A DNA stretch of 33,213 bases from a virus: the IMG/VR virus record IMGVR_UViG_3300042516_004237, positions 1 through 33,213 of that record; one strand, written 5' to 3'. The translations under genes and the position numbers were made by a program. Shown piece after piece: positions 11,744 through 30,012 of this stretch (position 1 is its first letter; every line of letters starts with the position of its first letter). The notes under the pieces were generated by a model that was not told the origin of the DNA, did no database searches, and was given only the letters and a program-made list of their open reading frames with translations.

Positions 11744-12040
11744 TCAGTGGTGGTTGAATCTCCTGGCTAAGAGTGCTGTGCCGATCACCGCGAGTGTCGG
11801 CAGCACGAAGTCTGTGATGCCCTTGAGCGTCCACGCCCGGGCCTGCATCCCGCCCCAGAAGGGCATGTTCGCTCGGCGCCCACCGTAGTGGTGCTCGATG
11901 TTGCGATACTCCGCTTGGGCGTACTCGCGCCCCACAAAGTAGGCCGACCCCGCGGCAGCGCCGGTCCACCAGTTGCCGGTCGCGATTGCGATGACGGACT
12001 GGATGGCGAGAGCGATAAGGGAGTGAGCGAGGTGGTGCAT
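11744..12040 (-). CDS. Small membrane protein, candidate lysis or tail-associated
   Basis: 98 residues from ATG 12040, chosen over ATG 12079 because it follows the micro-gene stop by one nucleotide (TGACATG). A hydrophobic segment at about residues 6-27 (LIALAIQSVIAIATGNWWTG) and a second at about 75-92 (TDFVLPTLAVIGTALLA) suggest two membrane passes. Between them is a charged REYAQAEYRNIEHH segment, then a Gly/Arg-rich stretch and FWGG. The REYAQAEYR pattern recurs in podovirus genes of unknown function. A holin-like role is possible but not shown; no endolysin or spanin is visible next to it. Confidence 0.6.
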   Translation of the reverse strand: MHHLAHSLIALAIQSVIAIATGNWWTGAAAGSAYFVGREYAQAEYRNIEHHYGGRRANMPFWGGMQARAWTLKGITDFVLPTLAVIGTALLARRFNHH

Positions 12041-12041
12041 G

Positions 12042-12107
12042 TCAGTTGCGTGGGTCGAACCAGAGCATGTCGATGTCAATGGGTGGTGGATTTTGGTGGG
12101 CGTTCAT
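12042..12107 (-). CDS. 21-residue micro-gene, copy B
   Basis: ATG 12107 to TGA 12044-12042. The peptide reads MNAHQNPPPIDID followed by MLWFDPRN. It is 35 nt after the spike 2 stop, and its TGA is one nucleotide before the ATG of the membrane protein. A second copy at 13625-13690 differs at six nucleotides: four are synonymous third-position changes (Asn, two Pro, Arg codons) and two swap neighbouring Gln and His codons. The DNA flanking the two copies is not conserved. This pattern is expected if the peptide itself is under selection. There is no Shine-Dalgarno; the leader ends GCATCCT. Function unknown. Confidence 0.65.
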   Translation of the reverse strand: MNAHQNPPPIDIDMLWFDPRN

Positions 12108-12142
12108 AGGATGCTTGATGATGCTGCCTGCGTGTGATCCGC

Positions 12143-13594
12143 TTATACGGATCGCCCGATTTCAATCCACTCTTCGCCGCCGACTCCGATTAAGGTTAGC
12201 GAGCTTCCATTTTGAGCTGAAAAGTTTGCATTGTTGTTTAACTGCATACATCCAACGGTTCCTGGGCCGCTGTGCAAGACAGTCAGGTTATTGGTAAACA
12301 GCAACGTAACAACTCTTCCTGGCCATGCGTGAAGAAGTGTTCCGATGTTGGTTGTTCCGGTGATGTGAAACGCCGAGTTTGTGTTTGGAAGCAGTAGAAC
12401 ACTAGCACTTGCAACAGACGCTAAACTCAAATTGCTAGTTGGATCTCCGCCAAAGTTTGTATAGACATTCCCGTTGCCCAATACAACATTTGACGTCGCA
12501 ACCGTTGCGTTTACTATCGTTGAGGCAATGCCTTTGACCCAAGAATTATCCAACATGACTCTTGAGGCTGAGCTTGTAACGCTAACCACATTTGTCACAT
12601 CACGAATTGAACATCCGTTAATGATTGCATCACCACCGTAAATCAAAACTCCGTGAGAAGATCCTCCCCACGCGCTGTGGTTCTGAATAAATGTGACAAG
12701 CGGAATTGAACCAGACGCGTTGTTGATGAACACCCCGGCAGTAGCTTGCCCAGCCGTTTGGCAACTAAGTAGCTTTATGTCTTCGCATCCGTTTGCAACG
12801 CTAATGCCAATGGAGTTTGGATGGCCTCCGGGAACGTTATCGAACCCGCATCCTGTAGCTGTTATTGAGTTGGCATTAGAAATGAACAAGCCACGAAGGT
12901 ATCCGTATGAAAAGGAGTTTGTAATCTTGTTCCAGTCTCCTCCATCATGAAAATGGTATGCCGTGCCGGGGCGTATCAAAGGAGTTCCATTTGCAATGGT
13001 TGCAAACGGCCAGCAGTGGCACTGGAGAATGTATGCAATGTCATAGCACTCGGCGATTTCGACGCAGTTGACATTGTCCATGTAGACACTTGTTAAACGC
13101 GGACGTTGATGGCCATACGAGTAGAAACCCTTGTCAAATCCAAGGATCATGCAGTTGTTGACAACAACGTCATCACCATCTGCTGTGATTGCAGTACCAA
13201 CCCATGCAGACACGCTGGTCTGAGGGAACGTCATCCCTTTTCTGTAAATCAACAGACCAGACAGAGACGCTCCGCCTTTCATCGAAATCGTTTGCGTTCC
13301 GCTCAAGATGAGCGATCCGCCCACAAGACTGTAGTTGGCAGACGAGTTGTCCTGCGGGCTGCCTACATACAAATGTGGGCCTTGAACTCCGACGTTTGGC
13401 TTTACAACTAAGGTAGAGTCCAAGACGCATCTCATGCCGTTTGGAATCACAACAGTGCCGCCAGCGACCCCTAGTGAATCAATCGCAGCCTGAATCGCCG
13501 CTGTGTCGTCCGTGACCCCGTCGCCTTTCGCCCCGAAGTCGGTGACGCTGACAAGTTTGTTCAGCTTGGTGGCGTTATTAAATGCTTTGCTCAT
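12143..13594 (-). CDS. Tailspike 2, beta-helix adhesin or depolymerase without the anchor domain
   Basis: 483 residues. After a short start (MSKAFNNATKLNKL) it has VSVTDFGAKGDGVTDDTAA (residues 15-33), the opening of the pectate-lyase-like right-handed beta-helix used in tailspikes. Repeated short strands fill the centre (VVVNNCMILGF, NSFSYGYLRGLFI, GVLIYGGDAIINGC). The last 75 residues (GRVVTLLF, NANFSAQNGSSLTL, EEWIEIGRS) match the C-terminal domain of spike 1. The gene is noticeably more AT-rich than its neighbours, with more A/T in third positions, as expected for a receptor-binding module acquired from elsewhere. It lacks the IPK-type N-terminal anchor, so it probably attaches through another protein. 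It is followed by micro-gene B. Any enzymatic activity is unproven. Confidence 0.8.
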   Translation of the reverse strand: MSKAFNNATKLNKLVSVTDFGAKGDGVTDDTAAIQAAIDSLGVAGGTVVIPNGMRCVLDSTLVVKPNVGVQGPHLYVGSPQDNSSANYSLVGGSLILSGTQTISMKGGASLSGLLIYRKGMTFPQTSVSAWVGTAITADGDDVVVNNCMILGFDKGFYSYGHQRPRLTSVYMDNVNCVEIAECYDIAYILQCHCWPFATIANGTPLIRPGTAYHFHDGGDWNKITNSFSYGYLRGLFISNANSITATGCGFDNVPGGHPNSIGISVANGCEDIKLLSCQTAGQATAGVFINNASGSIPLVTFIQNHSAWGGSSHGVLIYGGDAIINGCSIRDVTNVVSVTSSASRVMLDNSWVKGIASTIVNATVATSNVVLGNGNVYTNFGGDPTSNLSLASVASASVLLLPNTNSAFHITGTTNIGTLLHAWPGRVVTLLFTNNLTVLHSGPGTVGCMQLNNNANFSAQNGSSLTLIGVGGEEWIEIGRSV

Positions 13595-13624
13595 AGGTTG
13601 TCGTTATGCTTGTTGCCGTGTCGC

Positions 13625-13690
13625 TCAGTTCCGTGGGTCGAACCAGAGCATGTCGATGTCAATGGGCGGCGGGTTGTGTTGGGCGTTCAT
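13625..13690 (-). CDS. 21-residue micro-gene, copy A
   Basis: ATG 13690 to TGA 13627-13625. The peptide reads MNAQHNPPPIDID followed by MLWFDPRN. The ATG lies only 6 nt after the spike 1 stop, and the gene ends 30 nt before spike 2. It is the partner of the copy at 12042-12107, to which it is identical except for a Gln-His/His-Gln swap, despite four silent nucleotide changes. Both copies directly follow a beta-helix spike gene. The peptide has a Pro-rich centre, an acidic IDID segment, and a Trp-Phe-Asp-Pro-Arg end; there is no membrane segment. Function unknown; a small adaptor or assembly factor for the spike is a possibility. Confidence 0.7.
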   Translation of the reverse strand: MNAQHNPPPIDIDMLWFDPRN

Positions 13691-13696
13691 GTGGTG

Positions 13697-15805
13697 CTAT
13701 GCGCTGCGTCCGGTTTCGTACCATTGAACTCCATCGTGCTTTAACGTCAGTGATGTGTTCGCCGATGCCGAGAAGTTAGCTCCTCCAGAGAGGCGCATGT
13801 TCTGGTTGGTAGAGATTGCAGAATAGACGGTTAGGGAACCATTGAAGATCAGGGTGACCTCTCTGCCCATCCATCCCCATCTCATCGAACCGAACGCAGT
13901 TGTCCCAGAGACTCGGAACACATTCCCGGTCATTGGGATGACAAGTGGATCTGACGACGCGATGACTTGAGCAGTCGTGTTGTATCCCAGCGCGCCGCCG
14001 CTGGTGGAAGCGAAGTTTCCGAAGTTGCATTCGGACACAAAGATCGTGCTGTTTGCGACGGACGAATAGATCGGCCTGGTTGCGATGTCGTTGAACTTCA
14101 CGTTGGCAACGTGAATCACAGAAGAGGCATTGTCGGTCGAGATACCCAAGTCCGTGTTGCGGATTGTTCCTCCAGCGATTGAAACTCGCCCTTGCTGAAC
14201 ATAGATGCCGGCAACTTTTGGATACCACGTGGAGAACGAGTCGATGAAGGTGCTCTGACTTGCGATGGTATTAACAACGATGCCGTACCAGCACGCGGCA
14301 GATTGACACCCAATCAGTTTGGTGTCGTTAGCGTTTCCGCTGATGTCAAACCCAATGCTATCGGTGTGGGTGGCTGTGACATTGAAGTTCTGATCCGTGC
14401 CGCAACCAATCAGTGTGTTTGAGTTCGCGTTGTAGATCTTGAACCCAGTCTTGTACCCGTATGAGAAGCAGTTGGTGAACTTTACCCAGTCTGCTGTGTC
14501 GTGCGAGTAATAAGCGATTCCCGAACGGTAGGTTCCGGTGCTCGGGTAGATCGTAGTGTCCGAGGCGAACGGCCACATGTGGCAGTTTGAGATGTAGCAA
14601 ACGTCGGGAGAGTTCGTGATCTCGATCCCGTTGTTATTGTCCCCGTACACCCGGTCGATAACGTGCCGTTGTCCTGGCCCATAAAATAGCTTGTTGAAGC
14701 CCATCACCAGCAAGTTCCTGAGCGACGCAGAACTGCCTGTCGCCGTGATTGCCGTTCCGGCATAGCCAGTGCCGCTCTCAACCGGGAAGGTCATTCCGTT
14801 TCGATAGATGAGTAGATCCTCTATCGAAGCCCCTTGCTGCATGTTAATCGTCGCAGACGAGGCGAGACGTATACAGGACCCGGCAGTGCTAAATGTCTGT
14901 GCGTTCGCCGTCCCTACGGTGTCTGGATTCCTCCATTCCCCTTTCAACCGCACCTTGGCCTTGATTGTCAGCGACGAGCCAACCAAATACTTGCCGTCGT
15001 TCCCAATCGTCACGGTGCCGCCGGCTGTTCCAAGCGCATCAATCGCCGCCTGGATTGCCGCGGTGTCGTCCGTAGTGCCGTTACCGACCGCACCGAAGTC
15101 CTTTACCGATACGACATCGCCGAGCTTCGAGGCTACCCCGCGTGAGATGGATCCGGTTGCACCCAGTTGGTACACCGTGGAGTCGTTCGCGATGCGTCCC
15201 ACCAGGAAGATAAACTGGTCGCTCACCGTGGCGCCAGAGGTGAGCGTGATTGTGCTCGAGTTGGTCTCGGCGTAATCGTCGCCCGGGGTGAGCAGGAGAC
15301 CGTTGCGGAACACGCGAAGCGACCCGCTGCTCGGGGTGTAGGTGGCCGAGGTGAGGGTGAACACCGTCTGCCCAGCGGTGGCGGTCTTGGTCTCGGTGGC
15401 GAAGTTGCTGCTGGGCGTGACGTTGGCCTGGTAGCCAACGATGAAGCCCGTGACACCGTTTGCCGGTGCGCTCGAGAAAACGATCTGCCCGTTGCTGATG
15501 GTGTACGCGGTGCCGTCAGGGGATTGAGGCACGCCGCCGAGCACGACGAGGTAGCTTTTTGGGTCGTTGCTCGAGTAGCCGCTGAGGCTGAAAGTTGTGG
15601 TGGACCCGTTGCCCGTGATGCTGGTGAGGGTCGGGGTGAACGTGCTGCCGCTGATCTCACCGACCGTGCCGTCTTCCTTCTTGATGTACAGCTTGCCCGT
15701 GAAAGTGTTGGATGCGATTTCACCCAGTTGCAATGCCGATGCCTGCGGGCCCGTGGCGCTGCCTGCGGTTGAGTTTCTCTTGGGGATGATCGGATTGGTC
15801 GGCAT
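13697..15805 (-). CDS. Tailspike 1 with N-terminal particle anchor and beta-helix
   Basis: 702 residues in a clear domain order. Residues 1-50 are the shared anchor (IIPKRN, LQLGEIASNTFTGKLYIKKEDG). Residues 58-205 are two beta-sandwich repeats (TSITGNGSTTTFSLSGY; ATAGQTVFTLTSATYT). From 229 comes the pectate-lyase-like beta-helix opening (VSVKDFGAVGNGTTDDTAA), then short-strand repeats to about 625. The last 75 residues (GREVTLIFNGSLTV, GGANFSASANTSLTL, WYETGRS) are paralogous to spike 2. Base composition shifts near 15000-15100: the anchor and sandwich part has the high GC of the structural operon, the beta-helix part is more AT-rich, which suggests module exchange. It is probably a host-surface glycan binder or depolymerase; no catalytic residues can be assigned. 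Confidence 0.85.
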   Translation of the reverse strand: MPTNPIIPKRNSTAGSATGPQASALQLGEIASNTFTGKLYIKKEDGTVGEISGSTFTPTLTSITGNGSTTTFSLSGYSSNDPKSYLVVLGGVPQSPDGTAYTISNGQIVFSSAPANGVTGFIVGYQANVTPSSNFATETKTATAGQTVFTLTSATYTPSSGSLRVFRNGLLLTPGDDYAETNSSTITLTSGATVSDQFIFLVGRIANDSTVYQLGATGSISRGVASKLGDVVSVKDFGAVGNGTTDDTAAIQAAIDALGTAGGTVTIGNDGKYLVGSSLTIKAKVRLKGEWRNPDTVGTANAQTFSTAGSCIRLASSATINMQQGASIEDLLIYRNGMTFPVESGTGYAGTAITATGSSASLRNLLVMGFNKLFYGPGQRHVIDRVYGDNNNGIEITNSPDVCYISNCHMWPFASDTTIYPSTGTYRSGIAYYSHDTADWVKFTNCFSYGYKTGFKIYNANSNTLIGCGTDQNFNVTATHTDSIGFDISGNANDTKLIGCQSAACWYGIVVNTIASQSTFIDSFSTWYPKVAGIYVQQGRVSIAGGTIRNTDLGISTDNASSVIHVANVKFNDIATRPIYSSVANSTIFVSECNFGNFASTSGGALGYNTTAQVIASSDPLVIPMTGNVFRVSGTTAFGSMRWGWMGREVTLIFNGSLTVYSAISTNQNMRLSGGANFSASANTSLTLKHDGVQWYETGRSA

Positions 15806-15873: not shown

Positions 15874-16821
15874 TTAGTAGGTTCCGCCAGAGATGACGTC
15901 GCCCTCTTTCACCACGCTCGTCGGAGCGTAGCCGGAGCCGTCATACACGAGCGCTTGTCCGCTCGAAGGACCGGTCGAGGAGATCCCAACGCCGCGCAAG
16001 GCCACAACCGAAGCCGATTGCGAACCATTGCCCGATGCCGTCACGTCGCCCGTGAGCTCGGTGATGCCCGTGTCGATGAAGTTCTGAGGCGTTGTCGCCA
16101 CCCACTGCGCACCGTCCCACGCGAGGACCTGTCCGCTGGAAGGAGCGCTCGAGGACACCGTCTGGCCCTGGATCTTGGTGACCGTAGCGGACACCGATCC
16201 ACTGCCCGAGGCGCTCACGTCCCCGCTCAGTTCTGTCATCCCCGTGTCAGGGAAGCTCAGCGTCTGCGGTCCCCATCCTGACCCGTCGTACACGAGCGCT
16301 TGCCCGGTCGAAGGGGTCGTGGACCACACCAACTCGCCTTGGAGCCCGGTGACCGTGGGGTTCGGGTACGTCCCGCCCAAGTCCCCGCCGGCGTTGCCGG
16401 TCGGAGCGCCACCAGAGATGATGGCAACGTACTGCGAACCGCTCCAGCGGTAGGAGACGTTCTCGTCCGTTGACACATAGATCTTGCCGGTCTCCCCAGG
16501 GGAGGGGAACGAGGCGACGTTGGCAAACTCCACCACGTCATCGACATAGGAGGGCAGGTAGCTTGAGTCGATCTTCGCACTGCCGTCGAGCGGTGCTACA
16601 CCGTTGGCCTGACCAACGCTCGAGGAAGCCACCGCGCCGATGTCGCTGGGTGCGATGTCGGAGACTGCCTTGAACTCCTTGACGGAGTGGTCTTCTGTCT
16701 TGAGGAACAGACGACCGAGAAACGCGTTGGACGCGATTTCGGCGATCTGCAGATCGCTGGATGAAGGTACGTTCGTTGATCCTTGCGTACCGTTTGTTTT
16801 TGGGATGATGGGGTTAGCCAT
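15874..16821 (-). CDS. Tail fibre with particle anchor and three beta-repeats
   Basis: 315 residues. The N-terminal anchor (residues 1-50: NPIIPKTN, LQIAEIASNAFLGRLFLKTED) is shared with spike 1 and the 95-residue protein at 16833. A linker with SSYLPSYVDDVVEF and GKIYVSTDENVSYRWSG (about 86-128) is a common phage fibre module. Three repeats of roughly 45-50 residues follow (about 140-183, 194-240, 252-299), each with a GD-Gly/Ser-rich run and ending in PSxGQxLxxDGxx. The end is EGDVISGGTY, matching NGDQLTGGTY at the end of the 95-residue protein. It starts at ATG 16821, after TGAGAGAAAACAAC. It is probably a structural arm in the fibre complex. Confidence 0.75.
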   Translation of the reverse strand: MANPIIPKTNGTQGSTNVPSSSDLQIAEIASNAFLGRLFLKTEDHSVKEFKAVSDIAPSDIGAVASSSVGQANGVAPLDGSAKIDSSYLPSYVDDVVEFANVASFPSPGETGKIYVSTDENVSYRWSGSQYVAIISGGAPTGNAGGDLGGTYPNPTVTGLQGELVWSTTPSTGQALVYDGSGWGPQTLSFPDTGMTELSGDVSASGSGSVSATVTKIQGQTVSSSAPSSGQVLAWDGAQWVATTPQNFIDTGITELTGDVTASGNGSQSASVVALRGVGISSTGPSSGQALVYDGSGYAPTSVVKEGDVISGGTY

Positions 16822-16832
16822 GTTGTTTTCTC

Positions 16833-17120
16833 TCAGTAGGTTCCACCGGTTAACTGGTCACCGTTCTTCAGAACAGGTTGACCGTTGACTGTCGGTGTGC
16901 CAGTCAAAGCGGGTGAGTTAAGTGGTGCTGCTCCCGCCACGTCAGCGACTACCAAATCCTCGACGGGTTTGAACGATGCGAGCGTGTCGCCGTCCTTGCG
17001 CATGTAGATCTTTCCCGTGGTGCGGTTGCTCGCAATCTCGCCAATCTGCAGGGCAGCGGCTTCGGGTCCAGCCGTGGACCCATCCTGAGCGTTCGTCTTG
17101 GGAATGACCGCGGATGCCAT
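16833..17120 (-). CDS. Short anchor protein of the fibre family, 95 residues
   Basis: It consists almost only of the anchor (residues 1-50: AVIPKTN, LQIGEIASNRTTGKIYMRKDG) plus a short tail (ALTGTPTVNG, then NGDQLTGGTY). The same ends occur in the 315-residue fibre at 15874, so the two are paralogues that differ by the repeat-containing middle. It is the first gene of the adhesin locus, followed after 11 nt by that fibre. It could be a minimal adaptor, a competitor for the same binding site on the particle, or a decayed fibre; the intact frame favours a functional gene. Confidence 0.7.
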   Translation of the reverse strand: MASAVIPKTNAQDGSTAGPEAAALQIGEIASNRTTGKIYMRKDGDTLASFKPVEDLVVADVAGAAPLNSPALTGTPTVNGQPVLKNGDQLTGGTY

Positions 17121-24802: not shown

Positions 24803-25023
24803 GGCTGCACCTCCTCTCCAACCACCGAGGAATCCTCGGCAGTTTCATTAAACACTCTAGCCGCAGCAGATGTGAGTAGGGACTTCCATCCCTGTCCCTT
24901 TGCGACAATGTGGTTCTCGCCATTACTGTCCCGCACAAGCAAAACAACGACATGTGCGTTTGTCTGCGCCTGCACAAGCGAGGGGATGCACCCAACAACC
25001 TGCTCTATGTTGTGACTGCTCAC
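24799..25023 (-). CDS. Small protein, 74 residues, unknown function
   Basis: GTG 25023 is used because it carries the same GGAGGTGCAGCC ribosome site as the next gene and overlaps the preceding stop (GTGA). The sequence has a helix (NIEQVVGCIPSLVQAQ), a hydrophobic strand (HVVVLLVRD) and ends EEVQP, whose codons form the next gene's Shine-Dalgarno. No family recognised. Confidence 0.5.
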   Translation of the reverse strand: MSSHNIEQVVGCIPSLVQAQTNAHVVVLLVRDSNGENHIVAKGQGWKSLLTSAAARVFNETAEDSSVVGEEVQP

Positions 25024-25310
25024 GGCTGCACCTCCTCCCACTTGCCCAGCGTGCGTAGAAACGCCTCTGCGCGTTGTCGTGCGGTGGCTTTTGCGCAGGA
25101 TGGCTGAGTGTCGCCTAGGTGTACGCAATAAATATCCCACTCATCAAAGGTGGTCAGCACCTTCTCCGCTTCGTGCATAGCGTTGAGGTCTTTGCAGTAG
25201 TCTGGCTCTGGCGCGTAATAGCCATGTGGACTAAGCCAGCCTAATCCACGGTTATCAGGCGTCCACCCACACGCCTCGGCGATTGCCACGTTGATTTTAT
25301 GGTTGGTCAT
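25020..25310 (-). CDS. Phage ABA sandwich-like protein, copy 1
   Basis: 96 residues from ATG 25310 with a GGAGGTG Shine-Dalgarno. MTNHKINVAIAEACGW at the start, PDYCKDLNAMHEAEKVL in the middle and ATARQRAEAFLRTLGKWEE at the end fit the Phage ABA sandwich domain family, small proteins common in phages with no established role. The C-terminal 53 residues are identical to copy 2 at 25307, encoded by a 160-bp direct repeat with three differences. Compared with copy 2 it has an additional segment near residues 17-33 (TPDNRGLGWLSPHGYY). Confidence 0.7.
   Translation of the reverse strand: MTNHKINVAIAEACGWTPDNRGLGWLSPHGYYAPEPDYCKDLNAMHEAEKVLTTFDEWDIYCVHLGDTQPSCAKATARQRAEAFLRTLGKWEEVQP
25029..25188. 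repeat. 160-bp direct repeat, copy 1
   Basis: Matches 25316-25475 with three differences. It covers the 3' half of the ABA sandwich-like gene at 25020. All three substitutions are silent in the protein (Lys, Glu and Ala codons). Confidence 0.85.
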
Positions 25311-25543
25311 TTCGCCACCTCCTCCCATTTGCCCAGCGTGCGTAGAAACGCCTCTGCGCGTTGTCGTGCGGTGGCTTTTGCGCAGGATGGCTGAGTGTCG
25401 CCTAGGTGTACGCAATAAATATCCCACTCATCAAAGGTGGTCAGCACCTTCTCCGCCTCGTGCATCGCGTTGAGGCACGCGCAGTAGTCCGCTTCCCATC
25501 CATACACCGCGGAGATGGCGGCGTTGATTTGTTCGTCGGTCAT
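25307..25543 (-). CDS. Phage ABA sandwich-like protein, copy 2
   Basis: 78 residues from ATG 25543, preceded by AAGGAGGTGG and overlapping the previous stop. It shares the N-terminal pattern (MTDEQINAAISAVYGW) and an identical C-terminal half with copy 1. It lacks the middle insertion of copy 1. Tandem duplication followed by divergence of the N-terminal halves is the simplest explanation. Confidence 0.7.
   Translation of the reverse strand: MTDEQINAAISAVYGWEADYCACLNAMHEAEKVLTTFDEWDIYCVHLGDTQPSCAKATARQRAEAFLRTLGKWEEVAK
25316..25475. repeat. 160-bp direct repeat, copy 2
   Basis: Second copy of the repeat at 25029-25188, in the gene at 25307. Homologous recombination between the copies would fuse the two genes and delete 287 bp. 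Confidence 0.85.
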
Positions 25544-28255: not shown

Positions 28256-29050
28256 CTAGAAGGGCCCCGATTCGTCTGCCTGCTCCCCAAACGGCACGTC
28301 GTCCTGTTGCTCTGGTGCGGGTGCCGGTGCTGCCTCAACTGCTGGTGCTGAATCTGGTGGCGGCGTGGTGCGCAGTTTCGCCATAGCCGACTTCACTTTC
28401 GACGGCACGCTGCCCTTGGTGGCGAGCGCCGCTTTCCTCTCGTCCTTAGCCTTGATGAGCTCGGCAACCCCTTCGTCGTCGCCCAGTGCGTCAGCGGCGT
28501 TGTACGCGTCGGTGTACGTGGCTTTAAGCACGTCCAAGCTCTCAGCCCGACGGATTGCCACCAGGGCATCGTCGAGGCTGAACGGGCGCCCCTGAGGTGC
28601 CGGTTCGGGTTCGGTCGCGTCAGGCCGGCGGATAGCCACCTGTTTGCGTGGTGCGGAGCCTGTTGCGGCGTTTCCATCGTCGTCGTCCTGGACGATACCG
28701 ACCATCGCGGCGAGAGCGTACCGGCGAGCGTATGTCACTGCGGACCCGACTCCCTGAGCGTCTGGTTTGCTGACGGGAATCGTGAACGTCGATTGAATCC
28801 ACTCCCCGGATTCGTGAGCGAGGATGGTCGTGAGCTCGATTGTTTTGTCGCCAATCTCCCCGGGCGTCTGGATCACTGCCAGTCCGTTCGTTGCGAGCGG
28901 CTCCCGGCACGCGTCCCACACGCCGGCGAGGTCTGCATACCTCGAGCGGAAGTGCGGGTTCACCGAGTCCTTGAGTGCGGCACGCATTGCACCCTGCGCT
29001 TTTGCGAGGGAACCTGCGAGCTTTGCTATTGAGTCTGATGCTTTCAACAT
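28256..29050 (-). CDS. ERF-family single-strand annealing protein
   Basis: 264 residues from ATG 29050; an in-frame ATG at 29074 would add eight residues (MTRTRTHS) and cannot be excluded. The core fits the ERF domain: AQGAMRAALKDSVNPHFRSRYADLAGVWDA (positions 19-48), LAVIQTPG, then VGSAVTYARRYALAAMVGI with a Gly/Asp-rich DDDDGNAA. The C-terminal half is Ala/Pro-rich and ends acidic (DVPFGEQADESGPF), like the SSB-contacting tails of many recombination proteins. It anneals complementary single strands during phage recombination. It works with the YqaJ-type nuclease just upstream. Confidence 0.85.
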   Translation of the reverse strand: MLKASDSIAKLAGSLAKAQGAMRAALKDSVNPHFRSRYADLAGVWDACREPLATNGLAVIQTPGEIGDKTIELTTILAHESGEWIQSTFTIPVSKPDAQGVGSAVTYARRYALAAMVGIVQDDDDGNAATGSAPRKQVAIRRPDATEPEPAPQGRPFSLDDALVAIRRAESLDVLKATYTDAYNAADALGDDEGVAELIKAKDERKAALATKGSVPSKVKSAMAKLRTTPPPDSAPAVEAAPAPAPEQQDDVPFGEQADESGPF

Positions 29051-29088
29051 ACTGTGTGTTCTTGTTCTTGTCATTGATACTGCGTTAC

Positions 29089-30012
29089 TTACTTGCTGCT
29101 TTTCTTCACGTTGATACGGAAGTTCCTGAATGCCTGGCGCACGAACGCCGGCACCTCCTTAGCCTCGGTCATCCCCGCGGAGATGGACCACCCCGGTCCA
29201 ATCACCTTCTCGGCAGTGCCGATGCGGGTTAACAACTGAGCCTTCAGAGAGTCTTTGATTTCCTCGAGACCCTTGATCTCGGAGGACACGTGCCGGTAGC
29301 GAGAGACCAGGTCGTCTGTCTCGATGTCGCCGGTGGCGTCGAGCACCTCGCCAGGGTTGGCGCGTGCATGGAGTTTCGAAACCACGCCGGCGTCCTCGGG
29401 GTACTGAAGTTCTGGCGCGACACCGGATTCGACCGACACCCAGAACCGGGCGACCTCGTCGAGGATCTGCGCATGGACCTCGGGGTCAGCTTTGCGGATG
29501 CAGTACTTGATCGTGTTGCCGGCGACGAGTGCCGCAATCACGCCCCACGACCTGCCCGTCACGAGCAACTGATGCTGAAGCTGGAGCTCGATGTGAGCAG
29601 GTGCTTCGACCACGCCGTCCTCGTCGCTCCACTTGTCACGAAACACGAGGAAGTCCACGTTTTTAATCTCGAGGAGTCCGGGACCGTCAGGGTGGTTGAG
29701 GATCTCGAAGTCAAACGAGGATCCGATGCGCCGTTCCTCGATGCGGGAGTAGACGTTGCGAGCACGCACGTCCCAGTTCATGTCCTCGGCAATGCCACGG
29801 GCGATGGCATCCTGCAGGCGGTTCCCCCAGCGCATGCGCTCGGATTCTTCAACCGTGTCGGCGAGGCCACCGGTCTTCTGGTGCCACAGTTGGAGACGCG
29901 TCTTGTACGGACTGAGGCCGAACAAAGCGGACACGTCGGTGGATGTGATGTCCTTGCCGCGGAGGGCAAGCCAGGCTTCCCGGTCTGACGGGAGTGTGTT
30001 TGTCGTTTTCAT
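29089..30012 (-). CDS. YqaJ-type recombinase exonuclease
   Basis: 307 residues. The early ITSTDVSALFGLSPYKT (residues 22-38) is the YqaJ family opening. SSFDFEI (98-104), LLEIKNVDF (113-121) and HIELQLQHQLLVTGRSWG (141-158) carry the expected D...E-x-K and Q-x-x-Q-L nuclease residues. The C-terminal third has an additional helical segment (about 235-270). It resects DNA 5' ends; with ERF it forms a two-gene annealing recombination system. The ATG 30012 leader is A/C-rich (AACGCCAAAACAC) and contains a 7-bp inverted repeat upstream. Confidence 0.85.
   Translation of the reverse strand: MKTTNTLPSDREAWLALRGKDITSTDVSALFGLSPYKTRLQLWHQKTGGLADTVEESERMRWGNRLQDAIARGIAEDMNWDVRARNVYSRIEERRIGSSFDFEILNHPDGPGLLEIKNVDFLVFRDKWSDEDGVVEAPAHIELQLQHQLLVTGRSWGVIAALVAGNTIKYCIRKADPEVHAQILDEVARFWVSVESGVAPELQYPEDAGVVSKLHARANPGEVLDATGDIETDDLVSRYRHVSSEIKGLEEIKDSLKAQLLTRIGTAEKVIGPGWSISAGMTEAKEVPAFVRQAFRNFRINVKKSSK

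Follow-up and report, generated by a model that had tools for sequence, protein, structure and literature searches.

A micro-gene carried behind phage spike genes is very probably selected as a peptide and probably doubles as a joint for spike exchange

Spikes and fibres set the host range of phages, and the exchange of whole spikes between unrelated phages is a practical question. Conserved boundary or linker sequences occur at the module joints of mosaic phages. At the level of genes, the excerpted account of Alteromonas phages A5 and V22 describes modules, composed of a tail fibre and its cognate downstream chaperone, that are shared between distant phages (PMC10579305). KP32-like Klebsiella phages, as excerpted, carry anchor-branched double receptor-binding protein (RBP) systems in which spike bodies are exchanged (PMC6872550), and excerpted work on single-strand annealing proteins reports that these act on short diverged sequences (PMC8093625) and promote their recombination (PMC8093625, PMC5928155).

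The locus described here lies in a viral sequence of 33,213 nucleotides (IMG/VR record IMGVR_UViG_3300042516_004237, positions 1 to 33,213), referred to as a whole as the window. The capsid protein of this phage belongs to the GP7 family (PF20911), like that of epsilon15/phiV10-like phages, and a tRNA scan of the window found none. The minus-strand gene order of interest is spike 1, micro-gene copy A, spike 2, micro-gene copy B, a phrog_1443 gene and a fibre-like gene. Spike 1 (13697..15805, minus strand; 702 aa) consists of an N-terminal anchor region and a pectate-lyase-like beta-helix, the anchor region preceding residue 225, from which the alignment with spike 2 runs. Spike 2 (12143..13594, minus strand; 483 aa) is anchorless, and its N-terminus, MSKAFNNATKLN, is a variant form of MSSKAFQNADKLN, the constant peptide with which second spikes begin. 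The two are paralogous, with identity in 200 of 485 aligned columns (41% at the protein level), and both match the pectate-lyase-like family PF12708, in agreement with the first-pass annotation, which had placed each copy behind a paralogous beta-helix spike. The 98-aa PHROG 1443 protein (11744..12040, minus strand) starts 1 nt past copy B, and the same strand encodes an ERF-family single-strand annealing recombinase (28256..29074) adjoined by a YqaJ-like viral recombinase/exonuclease (29089..30012).

Some further features of this neighbourhood are recorded here as observations. An anchor-like segment, PIIPK.N...GS...LQ(I/L).EIASN...G.L(Y/F).K, opens three successive minus-strand genes (13697-15805, 15874-16821 and 16833-17120), which encode spike 1 and proteins of 315 and 95 aa, the last scarcely more than the segment itself. 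A 196-nt repeat with 91% identity (25007-25202 and 25294-25489) is common to two small neighbouring minus-strand genes (25020-25427 and 25307-25543), whose products begin MTNHKIN and MTDEQIN, and related DNA also occurs in the micro-gene contigs L004 and L109. Proteins of phrog_1443, annotated as hypothetical or membrane proteins and with two predicted membrane segments, occur in 68 phage records; in the E. coli phages phiv142-3 and 21 (L117 and L118), which are unrelated phages, the gene follows tail fibre genes.

Both micro-genes are 66-nt ORFs read on the minus strand, copy A at 13625..13690 (ORF translation MNAQHNPPPIDIDMLWFDPRN, then stop) and copy B at 12042..12107 (ORF translation MNAHQNPPPIDIDMLWFDPRN, then stop), with the common product MNA(QH/HQ)NPPPIDIDMLWFDPRN. 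As first annotated, copy A starts 6 nt past the spike-1 stop and copy B ends 1 nt before the following ATG; the start of copy B lies 35 nt past the spike-2 stop. The copies are identical at 60 of 66 nt (91%), and every one of the six differences falls at a third codon position, four being silent and two producing the QH/HQ pair, so that the neighbour swap and silent changes noted earlier are borne out, as is the lack of mutual conservation in the flanking DNA. The longest uninterrupted identity is 35 nt (13632..13666 in copy A, 12049..12083 in copy B, both minus strand). Judged from the letters of A and B alone, six of six differences at third positions ((1/3)^6 = 0.0014) are modest evidence of selection; the strong evidence comes from relatives rather than from the A/B pair.

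Relatives were collected from a viral collection, in which the first peptide-core pattern returned six stretches; wider patterns and an alignment-based search brought the set to 18 contigs. Together with the window, these hold 24 copies of the micro-gene, with 15 distinct 15-codon cores and a family core of PPPID[IM][DE][IML]LWFDPR[NS] followed directly by the stop codon. The genes are 21-28 codons long (32 in one contig); the core is held at the amino-acid level, and both the sequence and the length of the N-terminus vary. With a looser scan, for W[FY]DPR[NS]-stop, 43 stretches were obtained; 16 belonged to family contigs, and in none of the 27 others was anything of PPPID..L found ahead of the W, which gives the family a sharp edge within the view of that scan. 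Contig 3300042387_001262 is a close copy of the region and carries both window copies, identical in sequence. Elsewhere the two N-termini of the window occur singly, MNAQHN in L001, L003 and L110 and MNAHQN in L004 and L005. This, and the disparity between 41% protein identity for the spikes and 91% DNA identity for the micro-genes, argues against the earlier suggestion that spike and micro-gene were simply duplicated together.

Across the 24 copies and their 15 distinct cores, the minimum numbers of changes at codon positions 1, 2 and 3 are 2, 1 and 24 (24 of 27 at third positions), and the pooled pN/pS is 0.094, a value that is biased because the searches required conserved amino acids. A less biased check was restricted to codons 1-9 of copies found again by a scan conditioned on the six last codons; among its 10 distinct sequences the changes are 1, 0 and 14, so that 14 of 15 fall at third positions. 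When the C-terminal end was left free in the search, all 22 matches stopped immediately after PRN or PRS, and when the start was left free, an in-frame ATG was present in 21 of 24 copies. Shine-Dalgarno cores precede 4 of the 24 copies; they are likewise absent ahead of 18 of 20 window genes checked (two have one). An RNA element was considered as an alternative and rejected for want of covariation, the predicted fold having eight pairs of which none was changed on both sides.

The first-pass annotation had held that broken homologues, or homologues away from spikes, would count against a gene. No such homologues were found: a DNA-profile scan of the window and the loci collected by then returned full-length copies, plus weak matches at E of at least 0.002. 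The homologues are thus full-length in that scan, but not uniformly intact, since three near-identical copies of the 24 (L111, L112 and L115) have lost the ATG and retain a TTG start alone. The earlier proposal of a real peptide-coding micro-gene gains support from the 24-copy family and its third-position bias, and on these comparisons the micro-gene is almost certainly coding and selected as a peptide.

The earlier remark that no described family is known for the peptide likewise stands, within the sources covered. Four peptide variants searched against PHROGs and Pfam gave no match up to E = 10, the PDB gave no match to the peptide, and neither 72,556 plasmids nor 50,697 phage records yielded a credible match. 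Six mycobacteriophage tblastn records (E of 5-9) lie inside lysin A genes and were taken as chance. Bacterial genomes gave 12 pattern matches, none preceded by PPPID, and a literature text search for LWFDPRN found no mention, papers rarely printing peptides. No described family was thus found in Pfam, PHROGs, the PDB, plasmids, phage records or literature text.

Upstream sequence is available for 22 of the 24 copies, and all 22 follow an ORF, starting 4 to 111 nt past its stop codon. These ORFs are of 221 aa or more in 20 cases, the two others (L004 and L109) being cut by the contig end, and 8 of 10 scanned have beta-helix/pectate-lyase matches; the exceptions are the partial ORFs of L045 and L114. 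The usual start offset is 4-6 nt or 32-35 nt past the spike stop, with seven copies at exactly 4 nt and five at exactly 6 nt. Stop-codon readthrough that appends the peptide to the spike C-terminus was considered, and window copy A and its relatives in L001, L003, L004, L005, L108, L110 and L113 do lie in frame behind a single stop. Copy B and the copies of L095 and L109, on the other hand, are out of frame with the spike, stop codons differ, and each ATG-bearing copy has its own start. With the reading frames differing in this way, the extension was rejected, and we regard it as scarcely credible.

Downstream, the next gene is phrog_1443 for 10 copies, a second spike for 10 and a gene starting MKYILARL for four. 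Short gaps, and a -1 overlap (TGATG/TAATG) with phrog_1443 in L045, L090 and L095, would suit a translational coupler, a micro-ORF that does no more than hand ribosomes on from the spike to the gene behind it. Such a coupler would not need a conserved PPPID...LWFDPR, however, the next gene differs (10/10/4), and many spikes lead directly to the next gene, at gaps of -4 to 8 nt, with no micro-gene between; a coupler is very unlikely. The narrower proposal of a leader or coupler for phrog_1443 was rejected, as a different gene comes next in 14 of 24 cases and phrog_1443 is absent from 8 of 9 tested contigs, some of which are short fragments. In L108 (1711-1756), a short remnant of phrog_1443, its start joined to its end, lies right behind an intact micro-gene.

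A micro-gene may stand behind either spike, behind both or behind neither of them. Among 78 phrog_1443 loci that were not selected for the micro-gene (two of 80, L082 and L084, were dropped because the match lay at the locus edge), nine carry it and 69 do not. An anchorless second spike, recognised by the constant N-terminus MSSKAFQNADKLN and its variants, stands ahead of phrog_1443 in 62 of the 78. The first-pass annotation had suggested, as speculation, that the peptide serves as an adaptor attaching the anchorless spike 2. The micro-gene does occur in genomes with such a spike, the window included, but 55 of the 62 anchorless-spike loci have none in the stretch examined, and it is therefore not an obligatory adaptor; moreover, 6 of 14 whole contigs searched hold no copy anywhere, and second spikes have their own constant N-terminal peptide, of an attachment type known from the excerpted KP32 account (PMC6872550). 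The adaptor proposal is thus largely refuted, and we consider it highly improbable. Second spikes with very different bodies (L011-L086) were seen to have in common an N-terminus of about 13 residues, MSSK(A/S)FQNA(D/S)KLN, which resembles the KP32 type.

Presence of the micro-gene is associated with one kind of spike end. Junctions behind spikes ending in GRS or SRS have it in 6 of 8 cases, compared with 4 of 125 others, in a count that took ORFs of at least 150 aa to be spikes, not individually tested, and that also left out L087, L088 and one L052 upstream ORF judged not to be a spike; after dereplication the figures are 4 of 6 and 4 of 83 (Fisher p = 0.0004). Exceptions occur in both directions, and spikes of the same C-terminal type in L056 and L063 are without a micro-gene. 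No spike clearly needs it, given these two cases and the 69 of 78 phrog_1443 loci that do without. We consider it highly probable that the micro-gene is a spike-linked accessory gene.

The place behind the spike is also used by other small ORFs. Many spike junctions leave little room (gaps of -4 to 40 nt), and 33 of 89 dereplicated junctions exceed 60 nt. A 27-residue ORF, MNLYDYCLETPVYQQLHEHWLQHGYDV, occurs with close variants in the junction gaps of L038 (3848-3928), L043 and L049 (3553-3636), directly ahead of the micro-gene in the first two and alone in the third, and has no PHROG match. Other gap ORFs are coiled-coil-like with 43-63 residues, or have about 57-73 residues and start MK.(I/V)TLTFTQEQLQVLN. 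Behind spikes ending in GTQRKLAIIA or a close variant (L022-L025, L030, L037, L015) we observed a 43-residue ORF, MDPRKMLVEQLGQLLLANIEQAALIEKLKADLENLKQSASEAK, followed by a further ORF of about 100 residues and then the second spike. On visual inspection, a given type of spike end tends to be followed by the same short ORF, the GRS case alone having been tested. The slot itself is old, since E. coli phage 21 has a 92-aa protein (PHROG 1361) between the side tail fibre and phrog_1443; short ORFs of the viral contigs gave no match to PHROG 1361.

That several unrelated small ORFs use the same slot, together with the patchy presence of the micro-gene (9 of 78 loci) and the occurrence, in several contigs, of the MKYILARL gene or an endolysin after it, would fit a host-directed accessory gene (a moron) whose peptide acts on the host, for instance in anti-defence, superinfection exclusion or lysis timing, the slot merely tolerating insertions. 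A gene of this kind would have no need to stand behind each of two spikes, as it does in four lineages (the window with its close copy, 08448_6158, 21962_7649 and 35664_14), nor would it be expected to associate with GRS-type spike ends, and we think such a role unlikely.

The relatives also record exchange. For 119 nt, L003 matches copy A and the flank upstream of it exactly; afterwards it tracks copy B and the phrog_1443 gene, so the switch must fall within the 35-nt run common to both copies, in copy A at 13632..13666. L003 is thus an A/B hybrid, and the event was either a spike gain in the window phage or a spike loss in the L003 lineage. The body of spike 1 and the micro-gene are 90% identical between L003 and the window over 1,476 nt; other L003 genes (DNA ejection, DNA transfer, Sak4-like protein) differ from those of the window, and the window's capsid family was found in one of 14 contigs tested, its own close copy, in a comparison that may include fragmentary records. 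In the three-way mosaic L110, the upstream flank resembles L005, the middle L109/L116, and the end and the following spike start L091/L114. Such comparisons make it highly probable that the micro-gene is a real crossover joint, a property that appears as events rather than as a selected function, and the ERF and Sak4-like proteins may be the makers of the crossovers.

These events bear on the earlier claim that the copies are kept alike by selection on the peptide and are not a repeat kept by DNA identity. Its first half holds; the second was overstated in view of the 35-nt identical run, since DNA identity is not irrelevant in L003 and L110. The opposite extreme, a linker kept at the DNA level for productive crossovers and encoding a functionless peptide, would account for the 35-nt run, the L003 hybrid and the L110 mosaic, and recombinases are present in both backbones. 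It does not predict, however, that diverged copies should vary at third positions while keeping amino acids, start and stop, and it was already weakened by the codon 1-9 check (14 of 15 third positions); a linker without a functional peptide is quite improbable.

With somewhat better than even confidence, we favour a reading in which the micro-gene is an accessory companion of spikes, selected as a peptide, whose DNA also provides a crossover joint for spike exchange. The peptide would be made by translation coupled to that of the spike, right after it, and would act on spikes in general rather than on one particular spike, with a disordered N-terminus and a short conserved C-terminal motif that would bind something common to many spikes; it might be a small assembly or stability factor. 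An assembly-type role is our leading, though tentative, suggestion for the peptide. When the end of spike 1 was modelled with readthrough into copy A (a monomer, with an 8-sequence alignment), the peptide had pLDDT below 50 and was undocked, the mean pLDDT being 72.2 overall; this tethered prediction cannot decide the matter because real spikes are trimers. For its part, the DNA of about 66 nt would be used as a homology arm by phage annealing recombinases (ERF in the window, Sak4-like in L003), and a crossover inside the micro-gene joins the spike end of one phage to the downstream genes of another.

A bolder extension of the favoured reading, rather doubtful as it stands, is a modular kit in which every spike end that can be exchanged is accompanied by a tiny gene of its own. 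The 21-residue peptide would be the smallest companion known here, a minimal peptide chaperone or cap, and its conserved DNA a socket for recombining in new spikes; if so, selection would have acted on one sequence in two ways, for its peptide and for its use as a recombination handle in changing host range. ORFs this small usually escape gene finders, and such companions may therefore be common yet unseen. Should the peptide aid spike folding or stability, it would be an unusually small assembly factor, handy for spike production; should it give no such help, it would exemplify a tiny gene spreading via an exchange point. A crossover placed within a 35-nt stretch of a coding micro-gene is a concrete joint to seek in other phages.

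Comparison with the described systems places the micro-gene near several of them. Like the excerpted A5/V22 modules, it is small, lies immediately behind the gene for a receptor-binding protein and is exchanged with it across phage backbones; unlike the chaperones in that account, it encodes only about 21-28 residues, is optional, has a crossover inside the small gene and has no sequence match to a known chaperone family. The same holds for Tfa/gp38-type chaperones, whose position directly downstream of the receptor-binding protein it shares (22 of 22 copies; spike-type Pfam matches in 8 of 10 upstream ORFs), with no match to a chaperone family for four variants searched in PHROG and Pfam up to E = 10. 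Alike in position and exchange, and different in size, sequence and internal crossover, it is not filed here as a chaperone. Nor does the peptide have a Pfam match that would make it an intramolecular chaperone of the Peptidase_S74 type (PF13884), a domain that occurs in the spike ahead of the L108 copy, separate from the micro-gene. As in the excerpted KP32 systems, the first spike is anchored and the second anchorless with a short constant starting peptide; in contrast to the KP32 attachment peptide, which belongs to the N-terminus of the second RBP itself, the micro-gene forms an ORF apart from the spike, spike 2 carrying its own constant peptide, and the excerpted KP32 accounts contain no micro-gene. 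The window ERF and the L003 Sak4-like protein are of the same kind as the annealing proteins introduced above, and may act at the joint. Like boundary linkers, finally, the micro-gene is a short conserved sequence that joins unrelated neighbours, being shared between unrelated flanks and crossed over internally, and unlike them it codes for a peptide constrained at the amino-acid level (14 of 15 third positions).
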